A DNA stretch of 36,085 nt. It comes from an uncultured Clostridia bacterium (GTDB taxonomy: Bacteria; Bacillota; Clostridia; Oscillospirales; CAG-272). The notes beneath the pieces were generated by a model. The model ran no database searches. It had not been told where the DNA came from and saw only the letters and a list, made by a program, of their open reading frames with translations. Below, piece after piece: positions 2,379 to 11,944 of this stretch. The DNA is taken from contig CALWTR010000034.1 in assembly GCA_944384525.1 (NCBI GenBank), positions 1-36,085 on the forward strand, read 5' to 3'. How positions within the stretch are numbered: position 1 is the stretch's first letter; each line of letters begins with the position of its first letter. A program made the translations under genes and the position numbers.

Positions 2379-3887
2379 TCACCTGTTGCGGTTGGCAGTA
2401 TCCCTGAGCATTACGTCATGGTATCCGCCCTCGATTATACTGGTTGAGGACACCAGCGTTATTTTAGCCTTCTTCTGGAGATCGGGTATATTTGTAACCC
2501 CGCAGTTGCACATAGTGGACTTGACCTTGTAAAGCGATTTTGCGACGTTATCGTGCAGACTTCCCGCATAAGTTACGTATGAGTCTACACCCTCTTCGAA
2601 AGAAAGCTTGGCCTTTCCGCCGAGATCGTATCTCTGCCAGTTCCTTGCTCTGTTTGAGCCCTCGCCCCAGTACTCCTTGACATAGGTCCCGTTTATCATG
2701 AGCTTACTTGTCGGGCTCTCGTCAAAGCGGGCAAAATACCTTCCGAGCATCATAAAATCAGCCCCCATTGCAAGAGCCAGAGTCATATGATAATCATGCA
2801 CGATACCGCCGTCAGAACAGATCGGAATATAAACTCCAGTTTTCTTAAAATACTCATCGCGGGCCGCGGCGATCTCGATCACCGCGCTGGCCTGTCCGCG
2901 TCCGATACCCTTCTGCTCCCGGGTTATGCAGATCGATCCGCCGCCGATACCTATCTTTACAAAATCCGCTCCCGCCTCGGCGAGGAAAAGGAAGCCGTCG
3001 CGGTCTACCACATTGCCGGCTCCTACTTTTACCTTATCTCCGTATTTTCCGCGGATGAAGTCGAGCGTCTTCTTCTGCCATATCGTATACCCCTCGGAAG
3101 AATCTATGCAGAGCACGTCAGCGCCCGCCTCAACAAGAGCCGGCACGCGTTTCTCATAGTCGAGGGTATTTATACCGGCGCCGACGATATAGCTCTTGTT
3201 TGCGTCAAGGAGCTCAAGCGGGTTCTCCTTATGCTGAGAGTAGTCCTTGCGGAACACGAAATACATCAGGCGTCCGTCGTTATCGACAATAGGCAGAGAA
3301 TTCAGTTTATTGTCCCATATTATATCGTTTGCTTCCTTTAGGGTCGTGCCCTTGGGGGCTGTAACGAGTTTTGAAAGCGGAGTCATGAATGTCTCCACCT
3401 TAAGATCAGTGCTCATCCTGCTGACGCGGTAATCTCTGCCGGTAACTATGCCGAGGAGTTTTCCGTTCGAGGTACCGTCGTCGGTGACCGCGACTGTCGA
3501 ATGTCCGTATCTCTCCACCAGGTCGAGAACGTCTGCCAGGGTATCGTCAGGACGAACGTTGGAATCGCTGACTACAAAGCCGGCTTTGTAATTCTTTACT
3601 CTGGCTATCATTGCCGCCTCATCCTCTATGGACTGTGAGCCGTAGATGAAAGATATACCGCCCTCCTTTGCCAGCGCAATGGCCATCTTATCGTCCGAAA
3701 CGGACTGCATGATCGCGCTGACAAGCGGTATATTCAGCGACAGCGGGCATTCCTCCTTGCCCTTCTTATACTTCACAAGAGGAGTTTTAAGAGTCACGTT
3801 AGCGGGTATGCAGTTCTCATCTGTATAACCTGGAATGAGAAGATACTCGCTAAAAGTATGCGAAACTTCCGGAATAATAATGGCCAT
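2379..3887 (-). CDS. guaB: IMP dehydrogenase
   Basis: Oxidises IMP to XMP with NAD+, the first committed step of GMP synthesis. The 502-residue protein has the classic layout: a split TIM barrel, with two CBS domains inserted at about residues 95-225. The catalytic loop reads [12 protein letters not shown], with the active-site cysteine at residue 320; most bacterial forms have GPGSICTTR, so the second glycine is a small departure. A later [20 protein letters not shown] segment and the flap region with [15 protein letters not shown] also fit. The start has GTGAGGATC just upstream. It is first in an operon with fhs, which makes the one-carbon donor used twice in purine synthesis. Confidence 0.97.
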
Positions 3888-7697: not shown

Positions 7698-9593
7698 TTA
7701 CTTGAAGACCTCAAATCCGGAAAACGCAAACGGATTAATATCGCTCAAATATACTTTATCTTTTTCCAATCTTCCGCCGCTGTTTATGAATTTGATATCG
7801 CTATATTCCGCCCCGAGCTCTATCACGGGATCAATAGCAGTATCCGCAAAGAAATTCCAAAGACCTACCGCCATAGAACCCTCATACTGCTTACACTGCA
7901 TATATAGAGAGGGGTGTCCGTATACATATGCAGGGAGCTTATTGCCCGACAACCATTCGATGCTGTCCGCGATCTGACGTCCTCTCTCATAGTGCTTGAG
8001 CATAGACGAGCTATCGGTGCGCGAATTTACGTTTAACACCAAAAAGCGGTTGCCGTCTGCGTTTTCATATCGATATGAAAGAGGAATCCTTCCGCCATGG
8101 ATCCGGATATCACTCAACACCTCAGCGCCTTCCCTTATGGTAATATCGTAAGAGGATGCGCCGATGATCGAAATATAATTGCCATTATGCAAAAAACGCT
8201 CCTCCATTCCGGCAACGATCGAGCCGGATGTGTCGCTTAGCGGTCCATTTATTTTTTCAAGGCCGACATCGATTCCCCTATCAGACAGAATTTCTGCTGC
8301 GGAAATGTCCAATATTAATCCGTTTTCCAAGGCGGTGATCGGAAGATTTCTCGCATTTTCATCGAAAACAATTCCGCAAACGCCCCTCCCCTCATAGACC
8401 GTGGGAATGCTGTTAGACACCAAGCATCTGGATGCCTTGGAAAATAAGAGCGACTGTATATCAACACTCTCATTTACCTTGGTAGGCACTTCTATATCCG
8501 CAACCTTTTTCATGGATTCGTATACACGCACACCACAGTTCTTTTTGTCACCGAATACTCTGTCAATATCCTTATACAGTGAAGCATTTCGCTCATGGAA
8601 AAGGGCGTAACCGGTTTCATAATCCGCATTTGATGTATAATCAATCCCGTATTTCAGAATACCATCCGTGCACCCCGCAGCTCTTATCGCCGTATCAAAC
8701 CCCTCTAAATAACTTGCGGGACAGTTGATTCGAGGTCTCGGATAGGTATCCCCCTCCGCCATGATCTCGATATCCCCCTGCCGAGTCCAGGAGCTTTCCA
8801 TCCTTTCAAGCTCAACAACGTCTTGCAAAGTGTTGCCCCAGCTTTCCTTAACTGCCCAATAAGGTGCTCCAATCAAGCGTACAAAAGGTCTTGTGTTTCC
8901 GGCCAGAAGTCTCGCAAGCTCATAAGCATCTGTGCCATCTATATCCCAAGATGTCATACAGGCACATGTGCCGATCCTTATCGTAGGGTCTACCTCGTCG
9001 ACGGCTGCTCTGATCCGAATCGCAAAATTCCTGAAAGCATCGCCGTTTGCTTTGAGATAGGCATCGCGGAATTTGTTCTTTTTGCCCGACGTTATATGCG
9101 CTTGAAGCTCTTCTCGTGTCAAATTCTCACCGGTCATCTCGTTGATGATCTCGATATGCCTGTCGCAAAGGCATGCAGGAGATTCTGCGTGATACCCATA
9201 TCTGAAATCGTCGTCAAATTGGAGCAGGGATACACCGCATTTTGCGATGTCACTTATGTAATCGGCGGCAAAGCATACAAATTCTTCGTCGGTTGGACAC
9301 ATGAATTTTTTTATTTCGGTGCCGTTTATGGAGCGCATATTTCTGAATCGAGTATTATTGTTGACCCAAAACGTCCAGATCCAAGCTCCTACCTCAAATC
9401 CATAATTTTGGAAAAAGCGACAGTTTTCCGCAAGCTCGTTCAGAACCGAAGCACGCTTATTCGCATCAAGCTCGTAGGTGTCCAATGCAAGGAAAATCCG
9501 CTCGGCGTTAAATCTTTTTATTTCGCTAACCAGTCTGTCCCGATCGCTTCGCTTTACAATGCGATTCATAATAGGAATGGAAATTTTATACAT
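7698..9593 (-). CDS. glycosidase-like TIM-barrel protein of unknown specificity
   Basis: A 631-residue protein without signal peptide. The N-terminal half looks like a beta/alpha barrel of the clan-A glycosidase type: an EVGAWIWTFWV strand near residue 67, a LLQFDDDFRYGYHAESPAC segment near 124-142 that resembles the active-site strand region of GH42-like enzymes, then CDRHIEIINEMTGENLTREE, RIGTCACMTSWDIDG, and IEIMAEGDTYPRPRINCPAS. The C-terminal 200 residues look like beta-sandwich domains. I cannot assign a family number or a catalytic pair with certainty. It is monocistronic, with its own promoter and terminators, and stands apart from any sugar transporter. Hairpin array A lies directly upstream, abutting the -35 box. 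Confidence 0.7.
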   Translation of the reverse strand: MYKISIPIMNRIVKRSDRDRLVSEIKRFNAERIFLALDTYELDANKRASVLNELAENCRFFQNYGFEVGAWIWTFWVNNNTRFRNMRSINGTEIKKFMCPTDEEFVCFAADYISDIAKCGVSLLQFDDDFRYGYHAESPACLCDRHIEIINEMTGENLTREELQAHITSGKKNKFRDAYLKANGDAFRNFAIRIRAAVDEVDPTIRIGTCACMTSWDIDGTDAYELARLLAGNTRPFVRLIGAPYWAVKESWGNTLQDVVELERMESSWTRQGDIEIMAEGDTYPRPRINCPASYLEGFDTAIRAAGCTDGILKYGIDYTSNADYETGYALFHERNASLYKDIDRVFGDKKNCGVRVYESMKKVADIEVPTKVNESVDIQSLLFSKASRCLVSNSIPTVYEGRGVCGIVFDENARNLPITALENGLILDISAAEILSDRGIDVGLEKINGPLSDTSGSIVAGMEERFLHNGNYISIIGASSYDITIREGAEVLSDIRIHGGRIPLSYRYENADGNRFLVLNVNSRTDSSSMLKHYERGRQIADSIEWLSGNKLPAYVYGHPSLYMQCKQYEGSMAVGLWNFFADTAIDPVIELGAEYSDIKFINSGGRLEKDKVYLSDINPFAFSGFEVFK

Positions 9594-9673: not shown

Positions 9674-9702
9674 AGTATAACATAAAACCATTGTTTTTTC
9701 AA
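9674..9702 (-). promoter_or_regulatory. sigma-A promoter of the glycosidase-like gene
   Basis: Minus strand: -35 TTGAAA (9697-9702), 17-base spacer, -10 TATACT (9674-9679). The -35 box touches the last ATGAAGC unit of hairpin array A. Confidence 0.75.
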
Positions 9703-9869
9703 TGAAGCATCGCCTTCGTCGATATGAAGCAGAAGCCTTACGGCTTCTGTGAAGCGGCGCACCCACGCCATGAAGCGAAGCGCACATTTTTATTCTTCAT
9801 GTTGCGAAGCAACGCTTCATAGCCGAAGGCTGCTTCATTTTTCATGCACCGCAGGTGCGCTTCATTTCC
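9702..9869. repeat. hairpin array A: seven 7-base spacers (ATGAAGC) between short stems
   Basis: On the plus strand four spacers read (a/g)TGAAGC at 9702-9708, 9724-9730, 9749-9755 and 9770-9776; then the orientation flips and three read GCTTCAT at 9814-9820, 9832-9838 and 9859-9865. Between them are small hairpins: ATCG/CGAT (9709-9723), AGAAGCC-ttac-GGCTTCT (9731-9748), GGCG/CGCC (9756-9769), GTTGC-gaa-GCAAC (9801-9813), AGCC-gaa-GGCT (9821-9831), GCACC-gca-GGTGC (9846-9858). The stems differ in sequence while the spacer is constant, the opposite of a CRISPR. Because the spacers invert at the centre (about 9777-9800), the two halves could also pair with each other. No coding frame runs through it. 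Confidence 0.85.
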
Positions 9870-9907
9870 AAACAAAAGAGCACTGCTCTCGCAGTGCTCT
9901 TTTGTTT
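9870..9907 (-). terminator. 17-bp perfect hairpin at the edge of array A, likely MerR terminator
   Basis: AAACAAAAGAGCACTGC and its exact complement GCAGTGCTCTTTTGTTT flank a 4-nt loop. It lies 24 bases after the MerR stop. It matches the size and loop length of the hairpin closing array B. The arm ends in T-rich sequence on either strand, so it could work both ways. Confidence 0.75.
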
Positions 9908-9931
9908 GAGACGTGTTGACAAAAAGAATGC

Positions 9932-11122
9932 CTACCAATCAAGCTGCAAATAGTACGGCTGATCGACTCCGTTTTCAAGGCTGTCACAATAAATATAGCG
10001 AACTACGTTTGCTGTTTCGCTATAGGCAAAAATAAGATATTGATAATTATTCGTTACTTTTTGGAAGGGCTCAGATCCGCTGTACAAAATCAAACAAGTA
10101 TATTCACCTTTTTCAATTTCAACAAATTTGTAGCCATAAGTTTTGTCCGCGATCGCTTTTTCAAATACTCCCTTTACGTGCTGTACTTCCTCACCAAGCT
10201 TGTCAGCCTCTAATGGCCACTCGGCATAGATGTCATACGTATAATCCATGCCGTAGAAGAATCGATAATAATACTTTGCATCCAAATAAACAGTTTCCCA
10301 TTCACCGTCTTCATTTTTTACATTTTCAAAATAATGCGGCCACGTGGGGAAAACCTCATTGAAAACCTTATTTCTGGTGGCAAGGCAATCGGGATCAAAA
10401 TCTCTGTAATAACGAAAGTCGGTCGTTTCCGAACATGTAACAATTCCATACGGCATAATAAAGCTAAAAGGTATAGCAACGACACACAGGCACAGAATGA
10501 TCCGTTTGACGGTCCTTTTTATGTTGGGTTTGAGTTTTGTAATAACGAGAATGGAAATGGACGGTATTAACGTCAAAAGTGTTAAAATGACATTAGCTAT
10601 GTTGATTTTGGGATAGGCATACGTGGTTACATCATTGATAATGCCCCCAATAACTAAAACGAATGGCAACCATACAACGATAAAAATCACGGCACTTTTT
10701 ATGATTCTTTTGACGTTGAGTTTGGGCAACTCTACAGGAAATTGAATTTCTGCTTCGCCTTGCAACAAAATCTCCGAAAGTTCTTCAACAGAATAAGCCT
10801 TTAAGCTTTCCACACGAGAAAGTGCTTTTAATCGTCCGTGATATTCGTCTGCTTGGATTTTTGTTCTTTGCTTGACATTTTCTATTATAGCGATGCTTGT
10901 TTGTGAATCCAATAATATATTACGTATTTCGTCAATGGAAAAACCGTATTTTCGAAGAGTAGCGATGTTTTGAAGGGCGGCAATATCACTTTGAGAGAAC
11001 TCAAAAGATCGGCGTCCTAAATAATTCTCTGTAAACTCCGGCGCGATCAGTTGTTCGTCGATATATACCCGAACTGTACGGGCGGTAAGCCCTGTCAACT
11101 CACATACTGCTTTTATTTTCAC
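9932..11122 (-). CDS. membrane-bound MerR-family regulator
   Basis: A 396-residue protein. Residues 1-75 are a MerR winged helix-turn-helix (MKIKAVCELTGLTARTVRVY, then YLGRRSFEFSQSDIAALQ, RKYGFSIDEIRNILL), followed by a helical dimerisation stretch to about 105. Then come three hydrophobic helices (about 140-163, 175-195 and 207-226) and a C-terminal domain of about 170 residues rich in Tyr, Asp and Trp that should lie outside the cell. This suggests a one-piece receptor that senses outside and binds DNA inside. The start is GTG at 11122 with GGAGGTGAT just upstream; an in-frame ATG at 11146 falls before the predicted transcription start. Probably self-regulated through the operator upstream. 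It looks more AT-rich than the housekeeping genes. Confidence 0.85.
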   Translation of the reverse strand: MKIKAVCELTGLTARTVRVYIDEQLIAPEFTENYLGRRSFEFSQSDIAALQNIATLRKYGFSIDEIRNILLDSQTSIAIIENVKQRTKIQADEYHGRLKALSRVESLKAYSVEELSEILLQGEAEIQFPVELPKLNVKRIIKSAVIFIVVWLPFVLVIGGIINDVTTYAYPKINIANVILTLLTLIPSISILVITKLKPNIKRTVKRIILCLCVVAIPFSFIMPYGIVTCSETTDFRYYRDFDPDCLATRNKVFNEVFPTWPHYFENVKNEDGEWETVYLDAKYYYRFFYGMDYTYDIYAEWPLEADKLGEEVQHVKGVFEKAIADKTYGYKFVEIEKGEYTCLILYSGSEPFQKVTNNYQYLIFAYSETANVVRYIYCDSLENGVDQPYYLQLDW

Positions 11123-11144
11123 AATTATCACCTCCATCGCTATC

Positions 11145-11175
11145 ATTTTACATTGTTACATAGGGTAATTGTAAA
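11145..11175 (-). promoter_or_regulatory. MerR-type promoter with 19-bp spacer and dyad operator
   Basis: Minus strand: -35 TTTACA (11170-11175), 19-base spacer, -10 TAAAAT (11145-11150). A dyad covers the spacer (11147-11175): TTTACA-N2-TTAC-N5-GTAA-N3-TGTAAA approximately. The over-long spacer filled by an inverted repeat is the hallmark of promoters that MerR proteins untwist, so this is most likely the operator of the gene it precedes. Confidence 0.8.
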
Positions 11176-11323
11176 GTGCTTTTTATTATTTGTCTAAATT
11201 TTTTCGAAAAAGTGCCGAGTAAAGGTTCACTTCTGCTCCCTTGCCCGAAAATGCCGATTGGCATCTTTTTATTTGCCAATAAATTCGAATTTCAAAAAAG
11301 TGAGAAAAACGGCTATTTGAAAA

Positions 11324-11677
11324 TTATTTGTTATCAATTTTCTTTTCAATCGTAATACACGACAAGGTGAGCATTCGCTGTATTCTGCCACAGAGGTTAC
11401 GATATGTTTTGAAGGTCGCTTCGTCAACCACCTTTGTGTTAAAGAGCAATTTGAGCCAGCTTTCCGTTTCTGCACACTCTTTTCTTGCAATCTTGAATTT
11501 AGAGAGCATATCGGCAAGGCTTTGAGGATATTGAGCCTCGGTAATGTTGGCAAACACACTCGACGAGGATTTACGAAGCTGAAAAACCGTGTTGGAATTA
11601 CCGCTGATAGATTTGCAAAGCAGTTCGCATTTTGTGGCAAGCTCTTCGGAATATTCAAGTAAGAGATTTTTTGCCAT
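11324..11677 (-). CDS. four-helix-bundle protein (S23/IVP family, Avd-like fold)
   Basis: A 117-residue all-helical protein. The family core is clear: VFQLRKSSSSVFANITEAQ, SLADMLSKFKIARKECAETES, WLKLL, then a last helix with CGRIQRMLTL. The founding members are encoded inside 23S rRNA intervening sequences of spirochaetes and relatives, and the same fold is used by Avd, the accessory protein of diversity-generating retroelements; both bind nucleic acid or are thought to. No reverse transcriptase or rRNA is nearby here. The start is ATG at 11677 with AAAGGAG six bases upstream; only 24 bases separate it from hairpin array B, leaving no room for a promoter between. Stop is followed by a weak ATGCC/GGCAT hairpin (11251-11264). 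Confidence 0.88.
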   Translation of the reverse strand: MAKNLLLEYSEELATKCELLCKSISGNSNTVFQLRKSSSSVFANITEAQYPQSLADMLSKFKIARKECAETESWLKLLFNTKVVDEATFKTYRNLCGRIQRMLTLSCITIEKKIDNK

Positions 11678-11701
11678 GTCGTTCTCCTTTCGCATCCAAA
11701 T

Positions 11702-11904
11702 CACGGCGTAGCCGTGTATGAAATCCGCCGTAGGCGGTATGTCCTCAGCCCGTCAGGGCTGTATGGAATCATCCCGAAGGGATGTATGTTATCAAGCCGA
11801 AGGATTCCGGGGGAATGCACGCTAACGCGTGATGCCATACTGCGCGGGGCGCAGATTACATACACGCCCAAAGGGCGTGATTACATGCCAATCCTTCGGA
11901 TTGG
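11702..11904. repeat. hairpin array B: nine short hairpins with 8-base spacers that invert at the centre
   Basis: On the plus strand: CACGGC-gta-GCCGTG (11702-11716), CCGCC-gta-GGCGG (11725-11737), CAGCCC-gtca-GGGCTG (11746-11761), CATCCC-gaa-GGGATG (11770-11784), an imperfect central pair (ATTCC-ggg-GGAAT, 11804-11816), CACGC-taac-GCGTG (11818-11831), CTGCGC-ggg-GCGCAG (11840-11854), CACGCCC-aaa-GGGCGTG (11863-11879), CCAATCC-ttc-GGATTGG (11888-11904). Left spacers are TATGAAAT, TATGTCCT, TATGGAAT, TATGTTAT; right spacers are ATGCCATA, ATTACATA, ATTACATG. The right consensus ATNNCATA is the reverse complement of the left TATGNNAT. Read on the minus strand the array forms the leader of the four-helix-bundle gene. 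Confidence 0.92.
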
Positions 11905-11906
11905 AT

Positions 11907-11944
11907 AAAAATTAAAGCGACCTCGAAAGGTCGCTTTAATTTTT
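11907..11944 (-). terminator. 17-bp perfect hairpin: tRNA-Cys terminator and edge of array B
   Basis: AAAAATTAAAGCGACCT and AGGTCGCTTTAATTTTT pair perfectly around a 4-nt loop (CGAA on plus). On the minus strand it starts at the last A of tRNA-Cys and ends in five T, so it should end that tRNA transcript. Confidence 0.88.

Follow-up and report, generated by a model that had tools for sequence, protein, structure and literature searches.

Mirror-image hairpin arrays and S23-family genes as candidate units of a class of small mobile elements

In a stretch of 36,085 nucleotides from an uncultured Clostridia bacterium (Oscillospirales, CAG-272; GenBank assembly GCA_944384525.1, contig CALWTR010000034.1), a gene of the S23 family lies behind a tRNA-Cys gene and is preceded by a mirror-image array of small hairpins, here called array B; a second array, array A, lies elsewhere in the same stretch, which is referred to at its full length as the window. 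The source assembly (G000; genomes and loci bear our own G and L numbers) comprises 1.39 Mb in 56 contigs and is 72% complete. S23 proteins are widespread and have solved structures. To our knowledge, they have no settled function, and we know of no partner for the common intergenic heptamer repeats and hairpin arrays. Our comparisons join S23 genes to arrays of tracking words and to dispersed copies of these arrays devoid of S23, and suggest that array B and its S23 gene may together be a single member of a large family-rich class of small mobile elements.

An S23 gene and a hairpin array behind tRNA-Cys

The locus holds the following features:

11324..11677, minus strand: S23-family gene (PF05635 / TIGR02436), 117 aa from the ATG at 11677
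11702..11904, minus strand: array B, two groups of four hairpins whose spacer word flips orientation halfway; relatives have arrays laid out alike upstream of S23
11907..11944, no strand assigned: terminator-like hairpin between tRNA-Cys and array B, 17 bp with a 4-nt loop
11944..12017, minus strand: tRNA-Cys(gca), the neighbour in front of the array B unit and outside the element

Array B, with its S23-proximal end at 11702 and its tRNA-proximal end at 11904, consists of eight perfect hairpins with stems of 5-7 bp and loops of 3-4 nt, four in 11702-11784 and four in 11818-11904. The 8-nt spacers read TATGNNNT in the first group and ATNNCATA or ATTACATG in the second, the word turning into its reverse complement past the centre. 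A hairpin detector that demands at least three hairpins with like spacers recovered both groups, and it found no group when the window was shuffled ten times with its dinucleotides preserved; under the less strict of two settings, one further three-hairpin group appears in the window (3670-3727). The RNA folding z-score of array B is -9.2 (long hairpin included, 100 shuffles). The array stops 24 bp ahead of the S23 start codon, with no promoter seen between them. Judged by comparison with relatives, array B, the terminator hairpin and the S23 gene are one unit behind tRNA-Cys.

The S23 protein, scanned with a longer start, matches PF05635 at 4.3e-18 (65.9 bits, cut-off 33.8), and it matches TIGR02436 at 1.7e-18 (66.8 bits, cut-off 24). 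Its AlphaFold model is a four-helix bundle with a mean pLDDT of 95.9, for which the best solved folds are the S23 proteins 2rld (TM 0.83) and 2gsc (TM 0.80), followed by Avd (4dwl, TM 0.77, E 0.018) and then by the ribonucleoprotein of a diversity-generating retroelement (DGR). Across 159 S23 sequences, N44 and E47 (117-aa numbering) are invariant, and Q33, S40, D56, K60, K66, E67, E70 and W74 are conserved in at least 98%. A role as a defence gene was rejected on the results of PADLOC, which at E values up to 1 gave no match for the window protein and two of three relatives, and one weak match (0.009) for the third. Close relatives come mostly from loci in records of ruminant-gut Clostridia and Oscillospiraceae. 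With a phage origin in mind, one peptide pattern was run over a viral collection and gave at least nine loci.

Arrays are linked to S23 genes and tRNA genes

A scan of 104 loci (980 kb, the window's own copy counted in) yielded 87 chains of hairpins with like spacers, most of them just upstream of S23, and none after one shuffle; at the array sites of S23 relatives, the arrays end a few tens of bases ahead of the gene. Centre-inverted 6-mers with a score of at least 6 lie upstream of 73 of 171 S23 genes (the window's gene counted twice, as itself and as L001), compared with 29 of 1415 control open reading frames (ORFs), whose matches include real arrays such as that of L040, and 0 of 162 shuffles. 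By looser rules, under which 83 of the 1415 control ORFs reach a centre score of 5, an array lies upstream of 66 of 98 S23 genes found with the Pfam model (the window's again counted twice), inverted words flank another 19 and 1 has only a downstream chain. At L072 (472-759) and L082 (365-589), expansion of the array half nearer S23 has given 13 and 10 hairpins, respectively, which draw on a few recurring stem types. Many contigs stop a few hundred bases from the S23 gene or within the array, as if arrays broke assemblies.

The link extends to tRNA genes. Within a core set of 73 loci encoding a relative of the window S23 protein, 62 have a same-strand tRNA gene at most 500 bp upstream of S23, compared with 24 of 1438 other ORFs of the same loci; the median distance is 262 bp, three more S23 loci begin less than 350 bp from the contig start, and the tRNAs ahead of S23 units represent 14 isotypes.

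S23 matches occur in 35 of 199 genomes of the wider phylum. At 29 S23 loci from this set (L389-L417), the best repeat period is 7 in 25 cases (versus 15 of 48 control ORFs), a period-7 repeat occupies both flanks in 24 (versus 5 of 48) and inverted words stand on both sides in 15 (versus 2 of 48); hairpin chains were found in none of the 29. Because of these flank repeats, inverted heptamers around S23 look like the general form, and the hairpin-spaced words like a variant belonging to the window's order. One of these loci, L389, carries a CTAGTAA repeat on one S23 flank and its complement on the other.

Array words follow the S23 lineage

Words present in at least five copies and in both orientations occur upstream of 108 of 159 S23 genes (the set left after removal of locus L001, identical proteins and short or weak matches), compared with 5 of 158 shuffles, a threshold quoted because four copies or more were also reached by 47 of the 158 shuffles. 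Array words seen among the loci include TATGNAAT, ATGAAGC, GTGATAT, GTGAAGT, ATGATG, GTGAAAT and TATATCAT. At the threshold of at least four copies, which covers 152 of the 159 genes, the fraction of S23 pairs sharing an array word is 0.69 at protein identities of 80% or more versus 0.008 at 30-40%, and the Mantel correlation between array word and S23 sequence is 0.488 (0 of 2000 permutations). The array word tracks the sequence and lineage of S23; with the upstream counts given above, this bears out the proposal of an earlier note, made from the letters of the window alone, that proteins of this family go with arrays of such design.

Pairing within the arrays is maintained as their sequence changes. 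In 26 TATG arrays, hand-picked by the author out of 51 parsed, compensatory changes were seen at 17 of the 32 pairs predicted. The array's first unit and its centre are complementary and co-vary, with 9.44 of 11 positions matching within loci versus 7.49 between loci (0 of 10000 permutations; 50 distinct pairs, with 21 of 74 genes failing to parse). By eye, most hairpin loops read GNA or GNNA on one strand of the unit, and they turn with the word.

Arrays also occur without an S23 gene

Array A illustrates a second form, with two features in the window:

9702..9868, minus strand: array A, an S23-less array of the ATGAAGC/GCTTCAT family, from word counts and alignment
9869..9908, no strand assigned: terminator-like hairpin at the outer end of array A, 18 bp with a 4-nt loop

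TGAAGC occurs in array A on the plus strand at 9703, 9725, 9750 and 9771 and on the minus strand at 9814, 9832 and 9859, and the seven TGAAGC/GCTTCA words within 191 bp compare with a maximum of three in 2000 shuffles. The small stems are partly decayed and strict hairpin detectors missed the array; as these detectors did not list it, the word count is what identifies array A. Its RNA folding z-score is -9.7 (long hairpin included, 100 shuffles). Both arrays are therefore real where the earlier note had placed them, array B by the hairpin detector against shuffles and array A by its words. The note had also given each a perfect 17-bp hairpin at its right edge: a long hairpin is present in both, of 17 bp in array B and 18 bp in array A, but it resembles an intrinsic terminator flanked by a T-run on either strand, placed after tRNA-Cys in the one case and after the stop codon of a MerR-type gene in the other.

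By eye, array A aligns with the S23-bearing arrays of L016 and L022, and its terminator hairpin equals, up to the loop, the sequence found there behind tRNA-Cys; a copy 85% identical over 240 bp is present in G027 and other genomes. These alignments make array A a copy, devoid of S23, from a different array family; other species of the genus carry the S23-bearing form of that family behind tRNA-Cys.

Two-unit patterns recovered 184 matches for ATGAAGC and 265 for GTGAAAT in 69 genomes of the genus, whereas reversing the patterns left 8 and 5. Arrays of the GCTTCAT kind, array A among them, measure about 100-210 bp and lie in differing neighbourhoods; no S23 ORF was found in 20 stretches bearing them (L339-L358), which reach about 0.2-1 kb or somewhat more to either side. 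Among 26 GCTTCAT arrays, 16 have a hairpin of at least 6 bp within 25 bp of one end, versus 140 of 1800 positions drawn singly at random; either array end was accepted because the automatic choice of the first-unit end was unreliable, and the comparison is confined to this family, the 19 GTGAAAT arrays being such that their own first hairpin gets counted. An element of 341-350 bp with the same ends lies in unrelated places in G047, G006, G024, G055 and G065 and is shortened in others. Its flanks are complementary over at least 7 bp in four of five copies (the left end of L284 shifted outward by 7 bases by eye) versus 173 of 2000 windows, which is too few copies to weigh. Of six GTGAAAT arrays retrieved from G047, one is followed by an S23 gene (L281) and two have both flanks in view and no S23 (L283, L284), while contig ends truncate the other three. 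G047 thus combines a solo array with an S23 gene of the same word, and so does G007 (L195, L151).

Occupied and array-free tRNA sites

Two tRNA sites were surveyed by eye among the matches listed, tRNA-Cys in 19 related genomes and tRNA-Val(gac) at 19 of 20 loci. Behind tRNA-Cys, a TATG array with S23 is present in L197 and L206 and a GCTTCAT array with S23 in L212 and L214, where a separate check confirmed the S23 gene; arrays with no S23 in view occur in L195, L198 and L210, an array cut by the contig end in L204, one farther down in L209, partial arrays in L199, L202 and L207 and heptamers only in L205. No array was recognized at this site in L196, L200, L201, L203, L208 and L211; in L208, a different terminator is followed by sequence resembling that after the stop codon of the window's S23 gene. 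L210 (G036, contig C21, 1-650) has two tandem GTGAAAT arrays, each after a T-rich stretch. Behind tRNA-Val(gac), about ten loci are compact, the terminator being followed by a like gene; arrays of differing words occur in L428, L432, L435 and L442, that of L432 being a TATG array with no S23 in view, and L437 has one farther down. Different arrays also stand in G005 and G045 beside the same gene, taken by eye for pnp. That the same tRNA sites are empty or carry other arrays in related species suggests turnover of the sites. By eye, L032 and L042 have behind tRNA-Cys the terminator hairpin that L035 has behind tRNA-Val, and the window's 17-bp hairpin at 11907-11944 matches that of L035 as well; it appears that the terminator can travel with the array-S23 unit. 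In L046, the same terminator sequence is seen by eye on both sides of the unit, before the array and after the S23 stop codon.

Proposed mechanism and alternative explanations

The linkage of arrays to S23, the tracking of words, the compensatory changes in hairpins, the dispersed S23-less copies and the occupied and empty tRNA sites together make it moderately probable that array B and S23 jointly belong, as a single unit, to a large class of small mobile elements, with S23 as the dedicated nucleic-acid partner. From these comparisons, we infer that the protein attaches to the array, works in trans and has a part in movement, movement itself being read from the comparison of genomes. Under this model, the array would be a mirror-image site in which a family-specific short word, present about four times per half, is reversed at the centre, and the small hairpins would hold the words apart, their sequence being free while pairing is kept. 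The Avd-like four-helix bundle of S23 would recognize its family's word, probably in oligomeric form and on the array in its folded state (DNA or RNA), and would promote the spread or upkeep of cognate arrays. Units with an S23 gene would settle behind tRNA terminators, and S23-less arrays such as array A would spread in trans, often beside intrinsic terminators.

Several observations weigh against this model. Profile scans of S23 (Pfam, TIGRFAM) found no known nuclease or transposase domain, 12 of the 98 Pfam-model S23 genes have no array even by the looser rules, and the two-unit pattern matches include some non-arrays. The tracking of words with S23 may reflect plain physical linkage. Array-free tRNA sites exist, with junctions not resolved to the base and neither a target-site duplication nor a base-exact empty site established. 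Finally, the expectation that arrays would be rarer in genomes devoid of the protein held for one word only: ATGAAGC matches average 0.27 in 11 genomes without an S23 match versus 3.12 in 58 with one, whereas GTGAAAT matches are no rarer, at 4.27 versus 3.76. G001 has 23 GTGAAAT matches, and in G042 an array lies on a contig that stops right behind a promoter-like sequence (L296); neither genome has an S23 match, an absence that carries little weight because of this contig end in G042 and the 63% completeness of G001.

The last of these points, together with the lack of a recognized catalytic domain, would also suit a scenario of mobile arrays moved by a general host or resident activity (for example a recombinase or reverse transcriptase, or else template switching at terminators), with S23 as passenger or beneficiary. 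We regard this as unlikely in view of the linkage and tracking of arrays and S23 across many families. Two candidate enzymes, the only ones covered by the search, also fit poorly: among 147 relatives, 102 have an S23 match, 35 an RVT_1 match and 54 a Y1_Tnp (PF01797) match, and of the 17 genus genomes with at least ten pattern matches, 12 have neither a reverse transcriptase nor a Y1 transposase match, a co-occurrence on which both were rejected as necessary partners. At the other extreme, S23 itself could be the enzyme that moves the arrays, the founding member of a transposase-like class aimed at terminators and tRNA 3' ends, with an active site speculatively assembled from the near-invariant polar residues Q33, S40, N44, E47, D56, K60, K66, E67 and E70 of the Avd-type bundle; we consider this quite improbable, but if it were true, the unexplained intergenic heptamers of other phyla would be traces of the same class.

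A different role again is that of a control region, with S23 regulating itself by binding the array as operator DNA or leader RNA and S23-less arrays regulating their neighbours. The short distance between arrays and S23 would fit, as would the promoter-like sequence found at most 110 bp upstream of 51 of 164 S23 genes (versus 5 after shuffling) and the position of array A and the arrays of L195 and L198 upstream of other genes. In the cases inspected, however, the promoter-like sequence comes after the last hairpin, and the array therefore lies outside the S23 mRNA; moreover, near-identical S23-less copies in dispersed places and empty sites exceed what self-regulation explains, and we judge this role distinctly doubtful. 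The resemblance of the fold to Avd and the DGR ribonucleoprotein, next in rank after the S23 proteins, raises the prospect of a relic or variant DGR in which S23 works as Avd with a reverse transcriptase. This seems to us highly improbable, there being no RVT_1 match in G000 (72% complete) nor in 112 of the 147 relatives, in a search that did not extend to template and variable repeats. Membership of a known RNA family was rejected for the arrays, as the window's only Rfam matches at gathering score are five tRNAs.

The proposed system, an array with a dedicated S23 partner, has a near parallel in REPIN-RAYT systems, described as inverted REP doublets with REP-associated tyrosine transposases (PMC3116915, PMC3733652). 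Going by these descriptions, the two have in common intergenic DNA that is short, palindromic and mirror-image, a protein family of their own close by and gene-less dispersed copies. They differ in that the protein here is S23 rather than a Y1 transposase (no PF01797 match in G000), in the roughly eight hairpins per array spaced by a 7-8-nt word and in the strong link to terminators and tRNA genes, so that the system would work by analogy with REPIN-RAYT while failing its enzyme test. S23 ORFs are also known from intervening sequences of 23S rRNA, for which one paper cites an older idea of the ORF as a mobility component (PMC4990558). The protein family and terminal inverted repeats are common to both, whereas the unit described here lies behind tRNA genes, has an array of many hairpins and leaves dispersed S23-less copies, and the five tRNAs among the window's Rfam matches leave no 23S rRNA insertion here. 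With the Avd of DGRs, S23 shares its fold but not its company, most array-bearing relatives having no reverse transcriptase match. TAACTGA heptamers, reported as intergenic tandem repeats whose role is not known in Beggiatoaceae, Cyanobacteria and Bacteroidetes (PMC4679880), recall the heptamers of other sequence that flank S23 genes in the window's phylum; the main text of that report contains neither the term S23 nor helix bundle. Unlike in CRISPR arrays, with their long direct repeats and unique spacers, the constant part here is 7-8 nt long and reversed at the centre and the variable part is palindromic. Arrays of this design could conceivably be mistaken for CRISPR arrays; the name '23S rRNA IVP' appears in the legend to a figure of a CRISPR survey (PMC10910872).

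No earlier report of a link between S23 and arrays was found among the matches listed in a literature search that excluded subscription journals and preprints. The association hints at a role for the widespread S23 family. Should the model hold, it would define a class of mobile elements without a recognized transposase, and the role of S23 would become testable by a binding assay on about 200 bp of DNA.

Neighbouring genes

One further gene lies between the two arrays:

9932..11146, minus strand: MerR-type regulator gene (PF13411, 6.2e-12), judged outside the system

The earlier note had joined array A, this gene, S23 and array B into one block. This arrangement was rejected, and that both arrays go with the one S23 gene is likewise not supported: array A aligns with the S23-bearing arrays of other species, belongs to a different family and is an S23-less copy. 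The MerR gene, too, is judged not to be part of the system because the array A matches listed in other genomes stop short of it.

Downstream of array A, a 631-aa ORF (7698-9593, minus strand) has no Pfam match at E 0.001 and has DNA relatives in G027, G042 and G016. The three best loci with a relative of this ORF (L320-L322) carry no GCTTCAT array, a further ground for rejecting the single block, although L322 has one three-hairpin chain of another kind.

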